Below, in pieces: positions 21,412 through 48,777 of a DNA stretch of 64,000 nt. Source of the stretch: an uncultured Opitutia bacterium (lineage in GTDB: Bacteria; Verrucomicrobiota; Verrucomicrobiia; Opitutales; Opitutaceae); the NCBI GenBank assembly GCA_903881475.1, contig CAIRTK010000064.1:1-64000 (forward strand), written 5' to 3'. The position numbers and the translations under genes are program-made. Every line of letters begins with the position of its first letter. Within the stretch, counting starts at the first letter, position 1. The notes below the pieces were generated by a model that was not told where the DNA came from, did no database searches, and was given only the letters and a program-made list of their open reading frames with translations.

Positions 21412-23535
21412 TCACTTGCGCAGCGCGTCGAGCACCGTGCCCGGCGTGAGCAGTTCGGGGAGGATCACCGGGTTGGCTTTGCCGGGCAGCCAGATCACGT
21501 TGAAGGGAACGGCGCTGCGCTGGTATTTGGCCAGCTCGGCGGTGATCTGCGGGTCCTGGTTCGTCCAGTCGCCGCGCAGCGTCGCGATCTGGTGGTCGCG
21601 GAAATAGCCCAGGACTTCCTGGTCGTGGAACACGAGTTTCTTGTTGGCCTGGCAGGTCGCGCACCAGCGCGCGGTGAAGTCCACGTACACGATGCGGCCG
21701 TCGGCGCGGAGCTGCGCGACCGTCTCGGGGCTCCATTTCTCCCAGGTAATGTCGTTGGCGGCGGGCGCCTGCGGCCAGCCGGTCCAGCCGCCGAGTGCGA
21801 GCACCGCCACGCCGGCGACGAGGCCGAAGCGGGCGCGGCCGGCGGAGGCGCCCGGGGCGTTCCAGCGGCCGTAGAACCACACGCCCATCGCGACGAGCAC
21901 GAGCCCGAAGAGTGCCATGAGCAGGCCGCTCTCCGAGGTCTGGCCGGCGAGGACCCACACCAGGTAGCCGACGGTTGCATAGAGCGGGAAGGCCATGAAC
22001 TGCTTGAAGGTCTCCATCCACGCGCCGGGCCGCGGCAGCACCTTCACCGCCTGCGGGAAGATCGAGAGCAGCAGGTAGGGCAGCGCGAGGCCGACGGCGA
22101 TGGCGGTGAAGATGAGGAAGGACTCGCCGACCGACAGCGCCAGCGCGGCGCCGAGTGCGGGCGCGAGGAACGGCGCGGAGCACGGCGTGGCGACGACGGT
22201 CGCAAGCACGCCGGTGAAGAACGAGCCGGCCAGGCCGGACTTGGACTGAAGGTTCGAGCCGACGCCGGTGGCCGAAAGACCGAACTCAAACAGACCGCTC
22301 ATGTTGAGGGCGAAGACGAGCATGAGCGCCGCGAGGGAAAACACGAAGGCGGGCGACTGCAGCTGGAACCCCCAGCCGATCTTGTCACCGCCCGCGCGCA
22401 GCACCGCGAGCACGCTGGCGAGCGCCCAGAACGAGAGCAGTACGCCAAGCGCGAAGACCAGCCCGTGCGCGACGACCTTCTTCTTGTCCTGACCGGACTG
22501 GTTCACGAAACCGAGGATCTTGATGCCGAGCACGGGGAAGACGCAGGGCATCAGGTTGAGGATGAGCCCGCCGATGAAGGCGAGGGCGAGCGTACCGATC
22601 AGGCTGGTGGGGCCGGGCGGCGTGACTTGGGTCGCGGGGTTGGAGGCAGGCGGGGCGGCGGGGGCCGCGGAGCCGAAGGGAACCTCGACGCGCAGGCCCC
22701 TAAACGAACCGTCGGCGAGCCAGCCGTTCTCGGCGGTGAGCACGCCGAGGAGTTTTTTGGCGTCGGCCGGGCCGTCGGGGGAGATCGGCAAGGTGAGGAC
22801 GAATCCACCATGGCCGTCGGCCTTGATGATCTGCGGCAGTTCGTAGGCGACGAGATTGTCGTCGGCGAAGAAATGGAGTTCGGCGGGGACGTGGCGGCCG
22901 GCACCAGTGGGCGTCACAGCGAGCGCGATCGTCTTGGCGTCGCGCGTGGCCGAGACCTTCCACGCGGCATCCATGCGCGGCAGCGCAGCGACCGTGGCGG
23001 AGACCTTGGCCCCCCATTCGGCATCGGGCGCGGGGGTGTCGGCGGAAACGGGCAGGGTGAGTGAGACCTTGGCGGCGCCGGGCATGCAGACCTCCTCGCA
23101 CATCAGCCACTCGGCGGCGGCGGCGAGCGTGACGCTCGTGCCGGGCTTGAGGTCGGCGGGGGGCGTGATGGTCACGGGCAGGAAAAGTTCACCCTCGTAG
23201 CCGTTGCCGATGACGGTGCCGGTGTGGTCCGTGAGCACGTGCGGCGCGGGCCACTGGATGTCGCTGGCGGTGAAACCTGGTGGCAGGGTCCAAGTGAGCG
23301 ACGTGGCGAGACCCGTGCCGGGATTGGTCCAGTAGGTATGCCAGTGTGGGTCGTGCACGAAGCGGAGCGCGACCGTGAACGGCTTGCCGGGCTGGATGGA
23401 CGCGCTGGCGGCCACCAGCGAGGCCTGGACATGGGAGGCGGCCCGCACCTGCGCCGGCAGAAACGCGGCGAGCGCGAGAGCGCAAAGGCCGAGGAAAGCG
23501 TTCGGCCGGCTCAGCGTAAAACGGGACAGCATCAT
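21412..23535 (-). CDS. DsbD-like thiol:disulfide interchange protein
   Basis: A 707-residue electron-transfer protein that carries cytoplasmic reductant to the periplasm. In order: signal peptide (about 1-33), N-terminal DsbD alpha-type domain with a Cys pair in WLMCEEVCMPG, a linker, an eight-helix DsbD/CcdA domain (about 320-580) with Cys in LMPCVFPVLGIK and ATPCSAPFLAP, and a C-terminal thioredoxin domain with WCATC. All three redox modules are therefore present. It would serve cytochrome c maturation or periplasmic disulfide isomerases. The start at 23535 (or the next Met) is chosen over an upstream TTG since it leads directly into the signal peptide. Confidence 0.92.
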   Translation of the reverse strand: MMLSRFTLSRPNAFLGLCALALAAFLPAQVRAASHVQASLVAASASIQPGKPFTVALRFVHDPHWHTYWTNPGTGLATSLTWTLPPGFTASDIQWPAPHVLTDHTGTVIGNGYEGELFLPVTITPPADLKPGTSVTLAAAAEWLMCEEVCMPGAAKVSLTLPVSADTPAPDAEWGAKVSATVAALPRMDAAWKVSATRDAKTIALAVTPTGAGRHVPAELHFFADDNLVAYELPQIIKADGHGGFVLTLPISPDGPADAKKLLGVLTAENGWLADGSFRGLRVEVPFGSAAPAAPPASNPATQVTPPGPTSLIGTLALAFIGGLILNLMPCVFPVLGIKILGFVNQSGQDKKKVVAHGLVFALGVLLSFWALASVLAVLRAGGDKIGWGFQLQSPAFVFSLAALMLVFALNMSGLFEFGLSATGVGSNLQSKSGLAGSFFTGVLATVVATPCSAPFLAPALGAALALSVGESFLIFTAIAVGLALPYLLLSIFPQAVKVLPRPGAWMETFKQFMAFPLYATVGYLVWVLAGQTSESGLLMALFGLVLVAMGVWFYGRWNAPGASAGRARFGLVAGVAVLALGGWTGWPQAPAANDITWEKWSPETVAQLRADGRIVYVDFTARWCATCQANKKLVFHDQEVLGYFRDHQIATLRGDWTNQDPQITAELAKYQRSAVPFNVIWLPGKANPVILPELLTPGTVLDALRK

Positions 23536-23684
23536 GGAGGGGGAGTGTGTAAGAGGCGGGAGGGAACGCAAAGATTCCCGTTGAAATCCGGCAAGCGGGC
23601 GAAGGTAACGGGAATGAAGGATATTACGCGAAACCGCGCCGGCGGGATATGGACCGAAAGAGCGAAAGCGGCCGTCCGCGATTC

Positions 23685-44202: not shown

Positions 44203-44235
44203 GGGGAATAAACCTGCGCGTAGTTACTCCTATCC
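44203..44235 (+). promoter_or_regulatory. ECF-sigma-like promoter candidate for the bufferin operon
   Basis: GGGGAATAAACC at 44203-44214 resembles an ECF -35 element (GGAAT core), and CCTATCC at 44229-44235 could be the -10 region, with spacing near that of ECF promoters. It lies 67 bases upstream of the precursor start. Other bufferin-type operons are commonly under stress or metal control; that link is an inference here. Confidence 0.35.
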
Positions 44236-44302: not shown

Positions 44303-44608
44303 ATGAACAAATCCACCCGCCTCATCATCACCGCCGCCGCCATGGCCGGCCTCTATGCCGGTTCGCTCGCCCTCCGCGCGCATGCCGAGGATCCCGCCGG
44401 CACGCCGGCCACCAAGGACGCCTCCAAGGACAAGAGCTCCTGTAAAGGCAAGGACGGCTGCAAGGGCGCCGCCTCGTGCAAGGGCCAGAACTCCTGCAAG
44501 GGCCAGGGCGGCTGCAAGACCGGTGACAACGGCTGCAAGGGCAAGAACTCCTGCAAGGGCAAGGGCGGCTGCGCCCCGGCGGCCGACGCCACCCCCGACA
44601 AGAAGTAA
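44303..44608 (+). CDS. bufA2: Bufferin-type (BufA2/HvfA-like) Cys-rich RiPP precursor
   Basis: A 101-residue exported precursor. A Sec-type signal (about 1-28, ending RAHA) precedes a core region with eight cysteines at 47, 53, 59, 65, 71, 78, 84 and 90, spaced six residues apart except one interval of seven. Units are CKGKDG, CKGAAS, CKGQNS, CKGQGG, CKTGDNG, CKGKNS and CKGKGG. This is the pattern of bufferin precursors, whose cysteines are modified by an MNIO enzyme to bind copper in the periplasm. The MNIO, partner and DoxX genes follow directly. A terminator-like hairpin after the gene would favour high precursor expression. Lys is very frequent, giving a basic core. Confidence 0.9.
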   Translation: MNKSTRLIITAAAMAGLYAGSLALRAHAEDPAGTPATKDASKDKSSCKGKDGCKGAASCKGQNSCKGQGGCKTGDNGCKGKNSCKGKGGCAPAADATPDKK

Positions 44609-44620
44609 TTCCTTCGCTGC

Positions 44621-44657
44621 GACGCGGCCGGCGCCTGGCGTCGGCCGCGTTTTTTTT
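44621..44657 (+). terminator. Intra-operon terminator/attenuator after the precursor gene
   Basis: ACGCGGCCG (44622-44630) pairs perfectly with CGGCCGCGT (44642-44650), loop 11 bases, followed by a run of eight T ending at 44657. It sits between the precursor and enzyme genes and would stop most transcripts, giving a precursor excess as usual in RiPP operons (inference). Confidence 0.82.
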
Positions 44658-44699
44658 CGCCGCTCGCCGGCGCGACCTCCTCCCGCTTAATTTTCCGCC

Positions 44700-45578
44700 A
44701 TGCCCGCCAATGCCTTCAACGGCCAGACCGACTATGGCATCGGGCTGGGCCTGCGGGTGCCGCATTACGTGCACATCCTGGAGAAAAAGCCGGACGTCGC
44801 CTGGTTCGAGATCATCTCGGAGAATTTCATGTGCGGCGGCGGGCGGCCGCTGGAGGTGCTGGACCGGATCATGGAGCAGTACCGCGTGGTGCAGCACGGC
44901 GTCTCGCTGTATTTCGGCTCGGCGGACAAGCCCGACCGCGAGCACCTGCGGCGGCTCAAGGCGCTGGTGAAGCGCACGCACACGCCCTGGCTCTCGGACC
45001 ACCTCTGCTGGGGCAGCGTCGACGGCACCTACACGCACGACCTGCTGCCGATGCCATACACGTTCGCCGCGGCCAGGACCACCGCCGCCAAGATCCGGAT
45101 GGTGCGAGATTTCCTCGAGGTGCCGATCTGCGTGGAAAATGTCAGCAGCTACGCCGAGTTCCACGCCTCGGAGATGACGGAGTGGGAGTTCCTCAGCGAG
45201 GTCGTCGAGCTCGCCGACTGCGGAATTCTCCTCGACGTGAACAACATCTACGTCTCGTCGCGGAACCACGGGTTCAATCCCTACGACTACCTCGACCACG
45301 TGCCGCACCACCGGGTCGGCCAGATGCACATCGCGGGGCACACCAAGTTCGAGAAGTACATCCTGGACACGCACGACCACCCGGTGCTCGACCCGGTGTG
45401 GAAACTGTACGCGCACGCCACCCGGCGGTGCGGCGTGACCGCCACGCTGCTGGAATGGGACGACCGCATCCCGTCGTTCGACGAGGTGCATGCCGAGGCG
45501 CTCAAGGCCAACGAATTCATCGCCGATGCGAAAAACGCCCGGAAAAAACCCGCCCCGCCGCGCCCCCGCGCGGCCTGA
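44700..45578 (+). CDS. bufB: MNIO (DUF692) RiPP-modifying oxygenase, BufB-like
   Basis: A 292-residue multinuclear non-heme iron-dependent oxidative enzyme with a TIM-barrel fold. Candidate iron ligands are distributed as in the family: WFEIISENFM, QHGVSLYFGSADKP, LSDHLCWGS, PICVENVSSY, ILLDVNNIYVSSRNHGFNP, GQMHIAGHT, DTHDHPVL and LLEWDDRIP. All key positions look intact. It should convert precursor cysteines in the cytoplasm before export, using the following DUF2063 protein for substrate recognition. The length is typical. It overlaps that gene by 53 bases. Confidence 0.93.
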   Translation: MPANAFNGQTDYGIGLGLRVPHYVHILEKKPDVAWFEIISENFMCGGGRPLEVLDRIMEQYRVVQHGVSLYFGSADKPDREHLRRLKALVKRTHTPWLSDHLCWGSVDGTYTHDLLPMPYTFAAARTTAAKIRMVRDFLEVPICVENVSSYAEFHASEMTEWEFLSEVVELADCGILLDVNNIYVSSRNHGFNPYDYLDHVPHHRVGQMHIAGHTKFEKYILDTHDHPVLDPVWKLYAHATRRCGVTATLLEWDDRIPSFDEVHAEALKANEFIADAKNARKKPAPPRPRAA

Positions 45579-46449
45579 CTCGGCGCGGGCCCTGCTCGCC
45601 TTCCAGCGCCTGATGCACGGCGCGCTGGTGCGGCCGCTCGCGCCCGGCGACCGCATGCAGTCCCGCTGGACCGACGGCCGCCCGATGGCGGAGGTCGTGG
45701 CGGAGTTCATCAAGCCCAACGACCGGCTGACGTCCTTCGACCGGCTCGAGATCTACAACCGGATGTACTGGTTTCGGATCATCGACTCCTTTTACGACGA
45801 CAACCCCGGGCTGCGCGCGGCGCTCGGCGACCGGAAGTTCAACCGGCTCGCCCTGGCCTACCTGGCGAAGCATCCGTCGCGCTCCTTCACCCTGCGCAAC
45901 CTCTGCGTGCAGCTGGAGGCCTTCATCCGGCGGGAACCCCGCTGGACGGCGCCGCACACGGCGCTGGCGCTCGACCTCGCGCGCTTTGAATGGGCGCAGA
46001 CCGTGGCCTTCGACGAGGCGGCGCAGCCCGTGCTGACCGCAGCCGAAGTGGGCCGCGCGGATCCTGCGCGCCTCCGGCTGGACCTGCAGCCCTATGTGAC
46101 GCTGCTGGCGCTCCGGCATCCGGTGGACACCTACATGCTCGCGGTCAAGAAGCGCGATTCCCTCCGGTCCGAGGCCAGCAACGCCACGGCCTCCGCGCGG
46201 CCGGCCGGGCGGACCCGGAAAGTGCCGCGGCCGCGGCGCGAACGCATCTGGGTCGCCGTGCACCGCGTGGACAACCGGCTGTATTACAAGCGGCTCGAGG
46301 CGCCGGCCTTCAGGATCCTGACGGCGCTGCGGGCGGGCCGGCCGCTGGCCCGTGCGGTGGCCGCAGCCGGCCGCGGGGTGACCCCGGCGCAGGTGCAGGA
46401 CTGGTTTGCCCTGTGGATGCAGCTCGGCTGGATTTGCCGCCGGAAATAA
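45526..46449 (+). CDS. bufC: DUF2063 partner protein of the MNIO enzyme, BufC-like
   Basis: A 307-residue protein with the N-terminal DUF2063 domain (about 10-110, ALLAFQRLMHGALVRPL, then SFDRLEIYNRMYWFRIID and SDDNP-like FYDDNPGLRAALG) and a C-terminal winged-helix-like part ending VQDWFALWMQLGWICRRK. In bufferin and HvfABC systems this protein binds the MNIO and the precursor leader. A Lys/Arg-rich linker lies near residues 215-240. The ATG at 45526 is inside bufB, giving tight coupling; the next Met (45613) would still keep most of the domain, so the start is not certain. Confidence 0.9.
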   Translation: MRKTPGKNPPRRAPARPDSARALLAFQRLMHGALVRPLAPGDRMQSRWTDGRPMAEVVAEFIKPNDRLTSFDRLEIYNRMYWFRIIDSFYDDNPGLRAALGDRKFNRLALAYLAKHPSRSFTLRNLCVQLEAFIRREPRWTAPHTALALDLARFEWAQTVAFDEAAQPVLTAAEVGRADPARLRLDLQPYVTLLALRHPVDTYMLAVKKRDSLRSEASNATASARPAGRTRKVPRPRRERIWVAVHRVDNRLYYKRLEAPAFRILTALRAGRPLARAVAAAGRGVTPAQVQDWFALWMQLGWICRRK

Positions 46450-46475
46450 AAGCCCGCGTTCGCGCTCTCATCTTC

Positions 46476-46949
46476 ATGAACCCCGCCTCCCTGTATCATA
46501 AACTGAATGGTCTCCTCGCCACCCTCGCCGGCTGGCTGCGCCCGCTTTTCCTGCTCATCATCCGGCTTTACTGGGGCTGGAGCTTCTTCCAGACGGGGAA
46601 AGGCAAGCTCATGCACCTCGACCGCACGGCGGGTTTTTTCGAAAGCCTCCACATCCCGGCGCCCAAGCTGAACGCCCTGGCCGCCGGCACGACGGAGTGC
46701 GTCGGCGGCCTGCTGCTGCTGCTCGGGCTGGGCGGCCGGGTCGTTCCGGTGCCACTCATCTTTTGCCTGTTTGTCGCCTACCTGACGGCGGAGAGCGACG
46801 CGCTGCACGCGATTTTTTCCGACCCGGACAAGTTCACCGGCGCCGACCCGTTTCTCTTCCTGTTCGCGGCGGTGATCGTCTTCATCTTCGGACCGGGCAG
46901 GCTGTCGCTCGACGCCTTGTTCTTCAAGAAAGCCGCGGCGGACAAATAA
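46476..46949 (+). CDS. DoxX-family membrane protein of the bufferin operon
   Basis: A 157-residue DoxX protein with four membrane helices (first near FLLIIRLYWGWSFFQTGKGK). The family motif around RLYWGWSFFQTGKGKL and the ECVGGLLLLLGLG helix are clear. DoxX genes are regular companions of MNIO-RiPP clusters and are thought to take part in redox or membrane functions of the metallophore. It begins 26 bases after bufC. Gly/Lys in the first helix match the group found in bufferin operons. Confidence 0.92.
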   Translation: MNPASLYHKLNGLLATLAGWLRPLFLLIIRLYWGWSFFQTGKGKLMHLDRTAGFFESLHIPAPKLNALAAGTTECVGGLLLLLGLGGRVVPVPLIFCLFVAYLTAESDALHAIFSDPDKFTGADPFLFLFAAVIVFIFGPGRLSLDALFFKKAAADK

Positions 46950-46989
46950 GGGCGGCGTCCACCGAGGCCCGCACAACGTAACAGAGGAT

Positions 46990-48777
46990 ATGCGCGCGGG
47001 CCGTTATTCGTTCATTGCCCTGGTGCTGGCCGCTTCCGTGGCGGTTTCAAGGCTCGCCGCGGCGGACACCCCGGCGGCGCCGGTCGCCTGGCAGGCGTGG
47101 TCGCCGGAGGTTTTTGCTCAGGCAAAGCGGGAGAACAAATTCGTGCTCCTCGACCTGCAGGCGGTGTGGTGCCACTGGTGCCATGTCATGGAGGAGACGA
47201 CCTACCGCGATCCCGCGGTCGGCCGCCTGCTGGCGTCGCGATATATCGCGGTGCGGGTGGACCAGGATTCCCGGCCGGACCTAGCCAACCGCTACGAGGA
47301 CTACGGCTGGCCCGCAACCGTGATCTACGGACCGGATGGCCGCGAGCTGGTGAAGCGCCAGGGCTACCTGCCCCCCAAGGAGATGGCCGGGCTGCTGCAG
47401 GCCGTGATCGACGATCCGACCCCCGGGCCGTCGGTTCGTCCCGAGCCCGCGGTCACCGCGGCGACGGCGACCGTGCTGGGCGACGAGCGCCGCGCGGCGC
47501 TGCTGCGCACATGGAGCGAGGGCTACGACGACAAGGCCGGTGGCTGGGGCTTCAGCCACAAGTTTCTCGACTGGGACAGCGTGGAGCTGGCGATGCGGCT
47601 GGCCGGGCGCGGCGACGAGACCGCGGCGCGGCGCGCGCGCGCCACGCTCCGGCTGCAACACAGGCTCCTCGATCCGGTGTGGGGCGGTGTTTACCAGTAT
47701 TCCGCCGGCGGGGACTGGAACGAACCGCATTTCGAGAAGCTTGCGCAGATGCAGGCGGAGAACCTGCGGATCTACGCGCAGGCCTATGCCCGCTGGCAGG
47801 ATCCGGCCGACTGGGAAATGCTCCGGGCGCTCCGGCTGTACCTGCGCGGATTTCTCACCACCCGCGACGGCGTGGTGCAGGCGAGCCAGGACGCGGACCT
47901 CGTGCCGGGCGAGCACAGCGCCGGCTACTATGCGCTGGATGACGACGGACGCCGGGCCCGCGGCATCCCGCGGATCGATCCGCATGTCTATGCGCGGGAA
48001 AACGGCTGGGTGATCGCGGCGGTCTGCCAGTTCGCCGCCACGACGGGCCAGGCGACGTACCGCACCGAAGCCGAGCGGGCGGCGCGGTGGGTGCTGGCGC
48101 ACCGCGCCCTGCCGGGCGGCGGGTTCCGGCACGACGAGCACGATGCGGCGGGGCCGTACCTCGGTGACACGCTGGCGATGGGCCGCGCGTTTCTCGCGCT
48201 ACACCAGTTGACGCAGGACCGGGCGTGGCTCGACCACGCGGCGGCAGCCGCGGAATTCCTGGCGGCGCATTTTGGCCGGGGTGCGGAGGCGGGCTTTGCC
48301 AGCAGCGACACGACGGTGAACGCCTTTCCGGCGCCGCGGCCGCAGTTTGACGAAAACGTCGGCGTGGCACGCTTTGGCACCGCCTTGGCGGAGGTCACGG
48401 GCCGCGCGGAGTTCCGCGCCATGGCGGCGACGGCACTGCGCTGGCTGCTGGCCCCGGGACAGACGGACGGGCGCGGTTTTTATGTCGCGGGACTGTTGCT
48501 GGCCGAGGAGGAGGCGCGGACGGACCCGATCCATATCGCGATCGTGGGCCGGCGGGACGATCCGGTGGCGCAGGCCATGTTTGCAGCCGCGCTGCGCGTG
48601 CCGGAAGCGCACAAGCTCGTCGAATGGTGGGACCGGCGCGACGGCCCGGCGCCGCGCGGCGAGGACATCTATCCCGTGCTGGACCACGCGGCGGCCTTCC
48701 TTTGCGCGAACGGTGCATGCTCCTCGCCGATCCCGGACGCGGCGGCGCTCACGGCGCGGCTCGCCAAGGTGAAGTAA
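46990..48777 (+). CDS. Exported DUF255 thioredoxin-fold / six-hairpin protein (YyaL/SPATA20-like)
   Basis: A 595-residue secreted protein. Signal peptide (about 1-25, SRLAAA), then a thioredoxin-like domain with WCHWCHVMEETTYRDP (about 60-75), then an alpha/alpha barrel (about 165-580) with GGWGFSHKFLDWDSVELA and GGVYQYSAGGDWNEPHFEKLAQMQ-like segments as in the YyaL family. Most YyaL proteins are cytoplasmic; this one is exported and starts 40 bases after the DoxX gene on the same strand. Its CxxC motif and place suggest a reductase or folding role for Cys-rich bufferin or its metal-loaded form (inference). No gene overlap is seen. Confidence 0.85.
   Translation: MRAGRYSFIALVLAASVAVSRLAAADTPAAPVAWQAWSPEVFAQAKRENKFVLLDLQAVWCHWCHVMEETTYRDPAVGRLLASRYIAVRVDQDSRPDLANRYEDYGWPATVIYGPDGRELVKRQGYLPPKEMAGLLQAVIDDPTPGPSVRPEPAVTAATATVLGDERRAALLRTWSEGYDDKAGGWGFSHKFLDWDSVELAMRLAGRGDETAARRARATLRLQHRLLDPVWGGVYQYSAGGDWNEPHFEKLAQMQAENLRIYAQAYARWQDPADWEMLRALRLYLRGFLTTRDGVVQASQDADLVPGEHSAGYYALDDDGRRARGIPRIDPHVYARENGWVIAAVCQFAATTGQATYRTEAERAARWVLAHRALPGGGFRHDEHDAAGPYLGDTLAMGRAFLALHQLTQDRAWLDHAAAAAEFLAAHFGRGAEAGFASSDTTVNAFPAPRPQFDENVGVARFGTALAEVTGRAEFRAMAATALRWLLAPGQTDGRGFYVAGLLLAEEEARTDPIHIAIVGRRDDPVAQAMFAAALRVPEAHKLVEWWDRRDGPAPRGEDIYPVLDHAAAFLCANGACSSPIPDAAALTARLAKVK

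Follow-up and report, generated by a model that had tools for sequence, protein, structure and literature searches.

We propose that a five-gene operon from an uncultured Opitutia bacterium of the family Opitutaceae is of the Buf2-like bufferin type and carries, as an optional redox accessory, an exported DUF255 protein (T) that would act as an envelope thiol reductase serving Buf2-type bufferins, and we give this reading a chance of about one in two. The operon lies in a stretch of 64,000 nucleotides (GenBank assembly GCA_903881475.1, contig CAIRTK010000064.1, positions 1 to 64,000), the whole of which is called the window below. It occupies positions 44303-48777 on the plus strand in the order bufA, bufB, bufC, doxX, and T, and, judged by its genes, most likely makes an exported, chemically modified, Cys-rich peptide that takes up copper. 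The link between T and bufferin clusters is well supported, and we infer the chemistry of their partnership.

Organization of the operon

The five genes of the original prediction were all found, the four after bufA with domains above the Pfam or NCBIfam cut-offs. All on the plus strand, bufA (44303-44608) encodes a Cys-rich precursor of 101 amino acids with eight Cys, exported according to its N-terminal sequence; bufB (44700-45578) encodes the MNIO (DUF692) maturase (PF05114, 351.5 bits), which passes the NCBIfam MNIO_BufB equivalog cut-off (340.6 versus 310 bits); bufC (45490-46449) encodes the DUF2063 partner protein (PF09836, 42.7 bits; cut-off, 27.2); doxX (46476-46949) encodes an HvfX-like DoxX-family membrane protein (PF07681, 70.1 bits; cut-off, 23.6); and the T gene (46990-48777) encodes an exported DUF255/Thioredox_DsbH protein of 595 amino acids (PF03190, 97.8 bits; cut-off, 27). 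The gap between doxX and the T gene measured 40 bases, as announced. The listed ATG of bufC at 45490 overlaps bufB, and the true start is probably further downstream. In an alignment of 72 rows, the His, Asp, Glu, and Asn of what we take to be the metal-site motifs of BufB are near-invariant.

A precursor gene directly 5' of the MNIO and DUF2063 genes, with DoxX after them, is the architecture of a bufferin cluster, and the bufferin-type assignment was borne out by the MNIO score, the conserved A-B-C order, and a Buf2-like precursor core. The source assembly (3.2 Mb in 83 contigs) holds a single MNIO gene, one full-length T, and two weaker DUF255 or DsbD relatives. In a survey of 252 genomes of the window's family, in which stretches fetched around MNIO genes gave the clusters, an MNIO match was found in 77 genomes, in 76 of them above the MNIO_BufB cut-off. 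Because the 73 homologous precursors recovered beside MNIO genes, nearly all within the window's family, share the same gene order (A-B-C, mostly plus DoxX), the operon is not a chance arrangement. Excluded from the cluster count were four loci with distant MNIOs (L055, L064, L133, and L134) and the second piece of genome G392 (L077). In many family members the locus is flanked upstream by a 2-hydroxyacid dehydrogenase gene and downstream by GYF-domain, YhbY, and RluB genes, the last two named by eye; on this conservation of its flanks, the bufferin locus is old within the family. At L055 (6300-7100), in the same family, a different MNIO (48% identical) is preceded by a longer Cys-containing open reading frame unlike bufA, perhaps another precursor type.

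Linkage of T to bufferin clusters across phyla

The original prediction held the exported DUF255 protein to be an accessory of the operon, and T does recur as a companion of such clusters. Among 584 confirmed T loci in named genomes, the best 80, ranked by similarity and not by neighborhood, were taken with flanks of up to 8 kb. An MNIO gene lies in the flank of 22 of these 80, which represent five phyla; chance would account for about 0.4 of 80 (rough arithmetic from ~1.6 MNIO genes per 5-Mb genome). The linked loci belong to Pseudomonadota (twelve, among them seven Bradyrhizobium, which thus supplies 7 of the 22, a Methylobacterium, and a Burkholderiaceae), Verrucomicrobiota (five, including three family loci), Acidobacteriota (three, two of them Granulicella), Planctomycetota (one), and Bdellovibrionota (one). 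Three (L135, L136, and L202) were taken as the family records G281, G427, and G418, leaving 19 linked loci of 77 that are independent of the family survey and still span five phyla and several gene orders. The orders seen with T were A-B-C-T, A-B-C-DoxX-T, T-A-B-C-DoxX, and DoxX-T-A-B-C. With bufA as query, a precursor was found in the flank at 21 of the 22 loci; at L167 the MNIO gene is on the other strand and there is no precursor. The genomes of the other 58 named loci carry MNIO elsewhere in 46 of 50 and in 7 of 8 cases, giving 75 of 80 overall. Of 213 genomes drawn from the window's phylum, 20 gave an MNIO match (19 over the cut-off) and 3 had T, all with MNIO; MNIO was present in 15 of the 73 genomes whose DUF255 relatives were all weaker and in 2 of the 137 that had none.

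A cluster of CcdA-like proteins, of which three members were checked against Pfam, spans nine of the 22 linked loci, all in Hyphomicrobiales. In the Bradyrhizobium locus L171 and in L206, a CcdA-type gene is followed by DoxX, T, copies of bufA, and bufB, with a bufC relative in L206, and the Methylobacterium locus L176 has a thioredoxin and a CcdA-type gene downstream of bufB. Thioredoxin folds of the envelope receive electrons from CcdA/DsbD proteins, and the CcdA-type gene at nine linked loci favors the reducing direction for T.

Other genes were seen at these loci. At 13 of the best 80 loci, in three phyla, the neighbors of T or of the buf genes include an exported-looking protein of ~300-330 amino acids; the three copies scanned (L171:13434-14420, L141:4580-5563, and L144:3601-4506) gave no Pfam match at E <= 0.01. 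A creatininase-family gene follows bufB in Bradyrhizobium (L171:12649-13434), and its cluster spans eight loci. In a Steroidobacter metagenome-assembled genome (MAG), a Buf2-like precursor lies near T (L160:5431-5709, minus strand), and no MNIO was found in that genome.

Distribution of T within the family

Constant linkage of the DUF255 gene, which the original prediction had put forward as a check in Opitutaceae genomes, did not hold. T, called in the family at E <= 1e-60, is present in 19 of the 252 genomes (20 copies), all 19 of which carry MNIO against a background of 77 of 252; these co-occurrence counts ignore kinship. Thirteen of the 20 copies sit in the operon after DoxX with gaps of 0-134 bases, two of them on split contigs. 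The raw count of 73 clusters gave 11 with T, 55 without, and 7 unresolved, and G392 and G468 were then added as present, since the T contig there probably continues the operon, beginning inside bufB (G392) or at bufC (G468). T is thus present in 13 of 68 resolvable clusters, always after DoxX, with five unresolved, and we rejected constant linkage because 55 clusters lack T although 3.5 kb or more of sequence follows bufB there. A tie of T to a single precursor type was likewise rejected, as T accompanies 6-Cys and long-repeat precursors alike.

The remaining copies differ in setting. In G196 a DoxX-T pair lies 28 kb away from a bufABC that has no DoxX. In G375 T and bufABC are on different contigs, and T is still close to the genes that flank the old locus. 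A second T clade of one genus code (L067, L068, L069, L070, and L071) was seen by eye near genes for an Nramp-type transporter, an MntR-like protein, and an error-prone polymerase. On the BufB-BufC tree, the distribution of T needs 9 changes, 7 of them forced by well-supported branches, and T is hardly clustered (35 of 500 shuffles were as low). Over 13 loci, T distances correlate with those of DoxX (r = 0.66; 0 of 5000 permutations), BufC (0.56; 0 of 5000), and BufB (0.41; 13 of 5000), compared with 0.85 between BufB and BufC at the same loci. Since T distances track those of its neighbors and its presence is patchy on the tree, T has in part been passed on together with the operon and has often been lost or gained again.

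This patchiness, with at least seven forced changes, would also suit T being a housekeeping envelope protein that came to lie beside the operon by accident, as part of an old locus, the more so as the locus is syntenic in many family members, so that neighbors persist, and as the T of G375 has kept its old flanking genes on a contig separate from bufABC. We nevertheless judge this unlikely, since such an accident would hardly place MNIO in the flank of the 19 non-family loci, in five phyla and several gene orders, and since no family genome has T without MNIO (19 of 19).

Fold and active site of T

T combines a thioredoxin domain bearing the site motif WCHWCHVM with an alpha/alpha barrel. Across 19 sequences W60, C61, H62, W63, C64, H65, C572, and C577 are invariant. 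T belongs to the Thioredox_DsbH (DUF255) family; the DsbH equivalog (NCBIfam NF043050) was not reached (18.8 bits versus a cut-off of 190). The structure model (pLDDT 82.6, pTM 0.83) matches the full-length DUF255 structure 7tkv_A over 501 residues (Z 36.6, root mean square deviation [rmsd] 4.4, 22% identity). The list of structure matches is dominated by the barrel, and the thioredoxin half is supported by PF03190 and phmmer instead. A scan of plasmids for T gave one distant relative, 38% identical.

Residues ~158-513 match sugar 2-epimerases (Z ~29, rmsd 3.0-3.3 over 325-334 residues), and many invariant polar residues lie there, so the barrel half might do the work; T would then modify a sugar or a glycan, its thioredoxin domain serving only as a sensor or anchor. 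A common fold at 9-13% identity proves no function, however, and with an invariant thioredoxin site and CcdA-type neighbors indicating thiol chemistry we consider this very unlikely.

The same site residues bear on another explanation, in which T serves copper tolerance and not the bufferin, through ScsC-like repair of copper-damaged envelope disulfides or carriage of Cu(I), and is merely co-regulated with the operon. Periplasmic thioredoxin folds are known in copper tolerance, as described for ScsC (PMC8900818), T has histidines in and after CHWC and a second invariant Cys pair, and some T copies sit away from buf genes. T is not known as an Scs protein, and its flank partner is a Buf2-like precursor at 21 of 22 linked loci, which makes this explanation rather doubtful in our view, albeit worth keeping in mind.

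The precursor BufA

The eight Cys of BufA had been placed in CKG units at six-residue spacing. The eight Cys are there, six of them in CKG, one in CKT, and one in CAP; the spacing is 6,6,6,6,7,6,6, that is, six of the seven intervals are of six residues and one is of seven. This last interval had been read as a peculiarity, but of the 71 full-length precursors of the family 50 contain the block 6,6,7,6,6, and proteobacterial Buf2 peptides have 6,6,7,6; the seven-residue interval therefore joins the window precursor to Buf2 and, as a reading of sequence, is a signature and not an oddity. Exactly six Cys after residue 24 are found in 32 of the 71 precursors (range, 3-14 Cys). The window BufA comprises the six-Cys family core (44477-44572, plus strand; C59 to C90, spacing 6,6,7,6,6), preceded by two extra CKG units (C47 and C53). 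The basic core, like the interval, had been offered as a difference from the acidic EGKCG type: BufA indeed lacks the EGKCG motif, and both features are typical of the family, whose precursor cores have a median net charge of +7, the value of the window BufA.

Two further family precursors scored 45.3 and 49.9 bits against BufA2 (cut-off, 60). In that NCBIfam scan of ten precursors, the five from Pseudomonadota passed (78.9-86.2 bits) and five stayed below (39.4-55.3 bits), namely, three from Verrucomicrobiota (two of the window's family), one from Acidobacteriota, and one from Planctomycetota. The proteobacterial peptides that pass have 6,6,7,6,13, against 6,6,7,6,6 in the window, both containing 6,6,7,6. 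Among T-adjacent precursors, 6,6,7,6,6 occurs in an acidobacterium, two Verrucomicrobiota MAGs, and a planctomycete (the block twice over), and 6,6,7,6,13 or 14 occurs in Pseudomonadota; others have 6,14,6 (Granulicella) or 6,8,8,11,6 (Bdellovibrionales). By its spacing, the window precursor is Buf2-like, though not filed under NCBI BufA2.

The precursor could in principle act unmodified, like a metallothionein, since modification is invisible in sequence and precursors range from 3 to 14 Cys in a sponge-like manner. Conserved MNIO and DUF2063 genes follow the precursor gene in family clusters, and related MNIO-PME1 products are reported as modified (PMC13097082), so that we regard an unmodified peptide as extremely improbable.

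The putative signal-peptide region (44303-44386, plus strand; residues 1-28) is conserved, the N terminus being by eye basic and hydrophobic and ending in AHA; the export of both BufA and T is read off such N-terminal sequences. The first 23 residues of BufA average 72% identity (71 sequences), and at the 11 loci with both genes the leader identity is 79% for BufA versus 26% for T (75% versus 29% with gaps allowed). This conserved leader would fit a second role in recognition by BufB-BufC; preliminary results on leader recognition are mentioned by the authors of the Buf1 work (PMC12452194).

Control elements

A sequence resembling an extracytoplasmic function (ECF) promoter, GGGAATA-N16-CTCCTA, lies at 44204-44232 (plus strand), 98 bases before the bufA start. 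The pattern GGAATA-N-CTCCTA (spacer 8-27, at most two mismatches in the second half), which we take to be an ECF-type promoter, was found upstream of bufA in 65 of 72 relatives, with a spacer of 16 or 17 in 59 of those 65; 200 shuffled sets gave a mean of 1.2 and a maximum of 6. Its strict form matches once in the source genome, at 44204-44232, and twice in one of five relatives; in the window, with at most two mismatches, there are 4 matches versus 1.0 expected, the bufA site alone being exact. Between bufA and bufB, a terminator-like hairpin with a T-run (44620-44657, plus strand) is kept in relatives: a hairpin followed by T's occurs in 47 of 72 bufA-bufB gaps (shuffles: mean 7.7, maximum 13), and the stem CGCGGCCG/CGGCCGCG is common to 31 of them (shuffled, 0.0). 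The hairpin may lower bufB mRNA relative to bufA. The shuffles of both elements preserve non-overlapping dinucleotides only and are weak controls.

The bufferin operons of Caulobacter are reported to be controlled by the ECF factor SigF (PMC3511200, PMC8224329). In the Methylobacterium locus, two genes lie just before the T/buf genes (L176:5467-6770, minus strand), one for a sigma factor of the ECF type and one for an anti-sigma factor of the RskA type. The Caulobacter SigF promoter differs from the putative one of bufA in the window.

Proposed model

In the model that we favor, the promoter, terminator, modification, and export steps are proposed from family membership, and the role of T is our own inference. 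The ECF-like promoter would drive bufA, with the partial terminator keeping bufA mRNA above the enzyme mRNA. BufB and its DUF2063 partner BufC, probably reading the unusually conserved signal peptide, would modify precursor Cys in the cytoplasm, presumably to 5-thiooxazoles, and Sec would export the mature peptide, so that copper is bound in the envelope. T, receiving electrons via a DsbD/CcdA-type membrane protein, would hold the thiol(ate)s and unmodified Cys of the mature product out of disulfides, making Cu(I) binding possible, and DoxX would work with T at the membrane. A DsbD gene with DsbD_N, DsbD_TM, and thioredoxin domains lies in the window (21412-23571, minus strand), and its product is a possible electron donor for T in the source genome. 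To keep or edit bufferin thiols, as originally predicted, looks like the likeliest role of T.

Published work makes the need for such a thiol reductase plausible: a 5-thiooxazole peptide with free thiols aggregated, disulfides being suspected by its authors (PMC13097082), and a related MNIO product contained a disulfide opened by tris(2-carboxyethyl)phosphine (PMC12538549). Characterized MNIO-PME1 pairs install 5-thiooxazoles, and their products generally bind copper (PMC13097082); for Buf2, the text of the survey reports only mass loss per Cys, a UV maximum, and a similar function (PMC12452194). A bolder version, which we advance tentatively and hold to be somewhat unlikely, is that Buf2-type bufferins have, across phyla, a dedicated redox partner in the T-type DUF255 proteins and that a CcdA/DsbD-DoxX-T relay brings electrons out of the cytoplasm to the exported thiooxazole peptide and so switches it between reduced copper-binding and oxidized copper-releasing states. 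The bufferin would then buffer copper in a rechargeable way instead of serving as a one-way sink.

Several observations weigh against the proposed operon with a dedicated accessory. The window BufA stays below the BufA2 cut-off (NCBIfam NF050166; 48.1 versus 60 bits), as do the bufC product for the HvfC equivalog (37.1 versus 142 bits) and the DoxX protein for HvfX (63.7 versus 80 bits). T is dispensable in the 55 of 73 family clusters that lack it despite at least 3.5 kb after bufB, the five second-clade copies (55-59% identical to the window T) lie away from buf genes, and the window operon has no CcdA gene. Moreover, no MNIO was found in five of the 80 named T genomes, whose completeness is not stated, and G491 has a distant MNIO only. 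The MNIO background can also be high: in the one order sampled outside the window's phylum, to which an acidobacterial member belongs, 93 of 200 genomes have MNIO; adjacency in several gene orders is therefore stronger evidence than co-occurrence.

The copper-binding bufferins form a large class of peptides that was described only recently. If the accessory role of T is real, it would explain how thiol-based buffers stay reduced in an oxidizing compartment, short DUF255 proteins would gain a first proposed role, and DoxX would gain a setting. The linkage occurs in cultured genera (Granulicella, Methylobacterium, and Bradyrhizobium), which makes the proposal testable.

Comparison with known systems

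The closest system is Buf2 (BufA2, formerly Buf_6/12Cys; e.g., in Caulobacter), likewise with a Cys-rich exported precursor, MNIO, DUF2063, and often DoxX, according to the survey text (PMC12452194). The Cys spacing 6,6,7,6 is common to Buf2 and the window precursor, which differs in its score (48.1 versus 60 bits), in a last core Cys at +6 and not +13, in its extra CKG units, and in the attached T. HvfA/oxazolin (EGKCG) clusters are alike in their MNIO, DUF2063, and DoxX partners and, putatively for BufA, in their signal peptide, whereas the window BufA has basic CKG units at six-residue spacing in place of EGKCG. Buf1 (DUF2282) shares the bufABC plus DoxX order and a related MNIO, with four conserved Cys as described (PMC12452194) against at least six in most family members here; against Pfam, at E up to 1, DUF2282 was not among the matches of the window precursor.

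For T, the two-domain fold is that of long-form DUF255 proteins (PDB 7tkv), which we take to be of the YyaL/SPATA20 type; T is shorter and, by its sequence, exported. The remaining DUF255 proteins found in the order and phylum align with T over residues 30-130 or 30-310 only, in frames mostly of 670-880 amino acids. ScsB/ScsC offers an analogy, in that a DsbD-type membrane protein feeds a thioredoxin fold in the envelope and the system is tied to copper; ScsC is a trimeric disulfide isomerase that binds Cu(I) tightly. Its thioredoxin subfamily is probably not that of T, and we know of no bufferin in that system.

In the open-licence PMC papers searched, the founding bufferin paper not being among those seen, nothing connected a thioredoxin or DUF255 protein with MNIO clusters. 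Neither word occurs in the bufferin landscape paper (main text, supplements aside); it gives the precursor, MNIO, DUF2063, and DoxX as core genes and further conserved genes in extremely low proportions (PMC12452194). Altogether, the comparison suggests that the operon itself is a further bufferin-type cluster and that the attached T, recurring in five phyla, is the part of it that this literature does not report.

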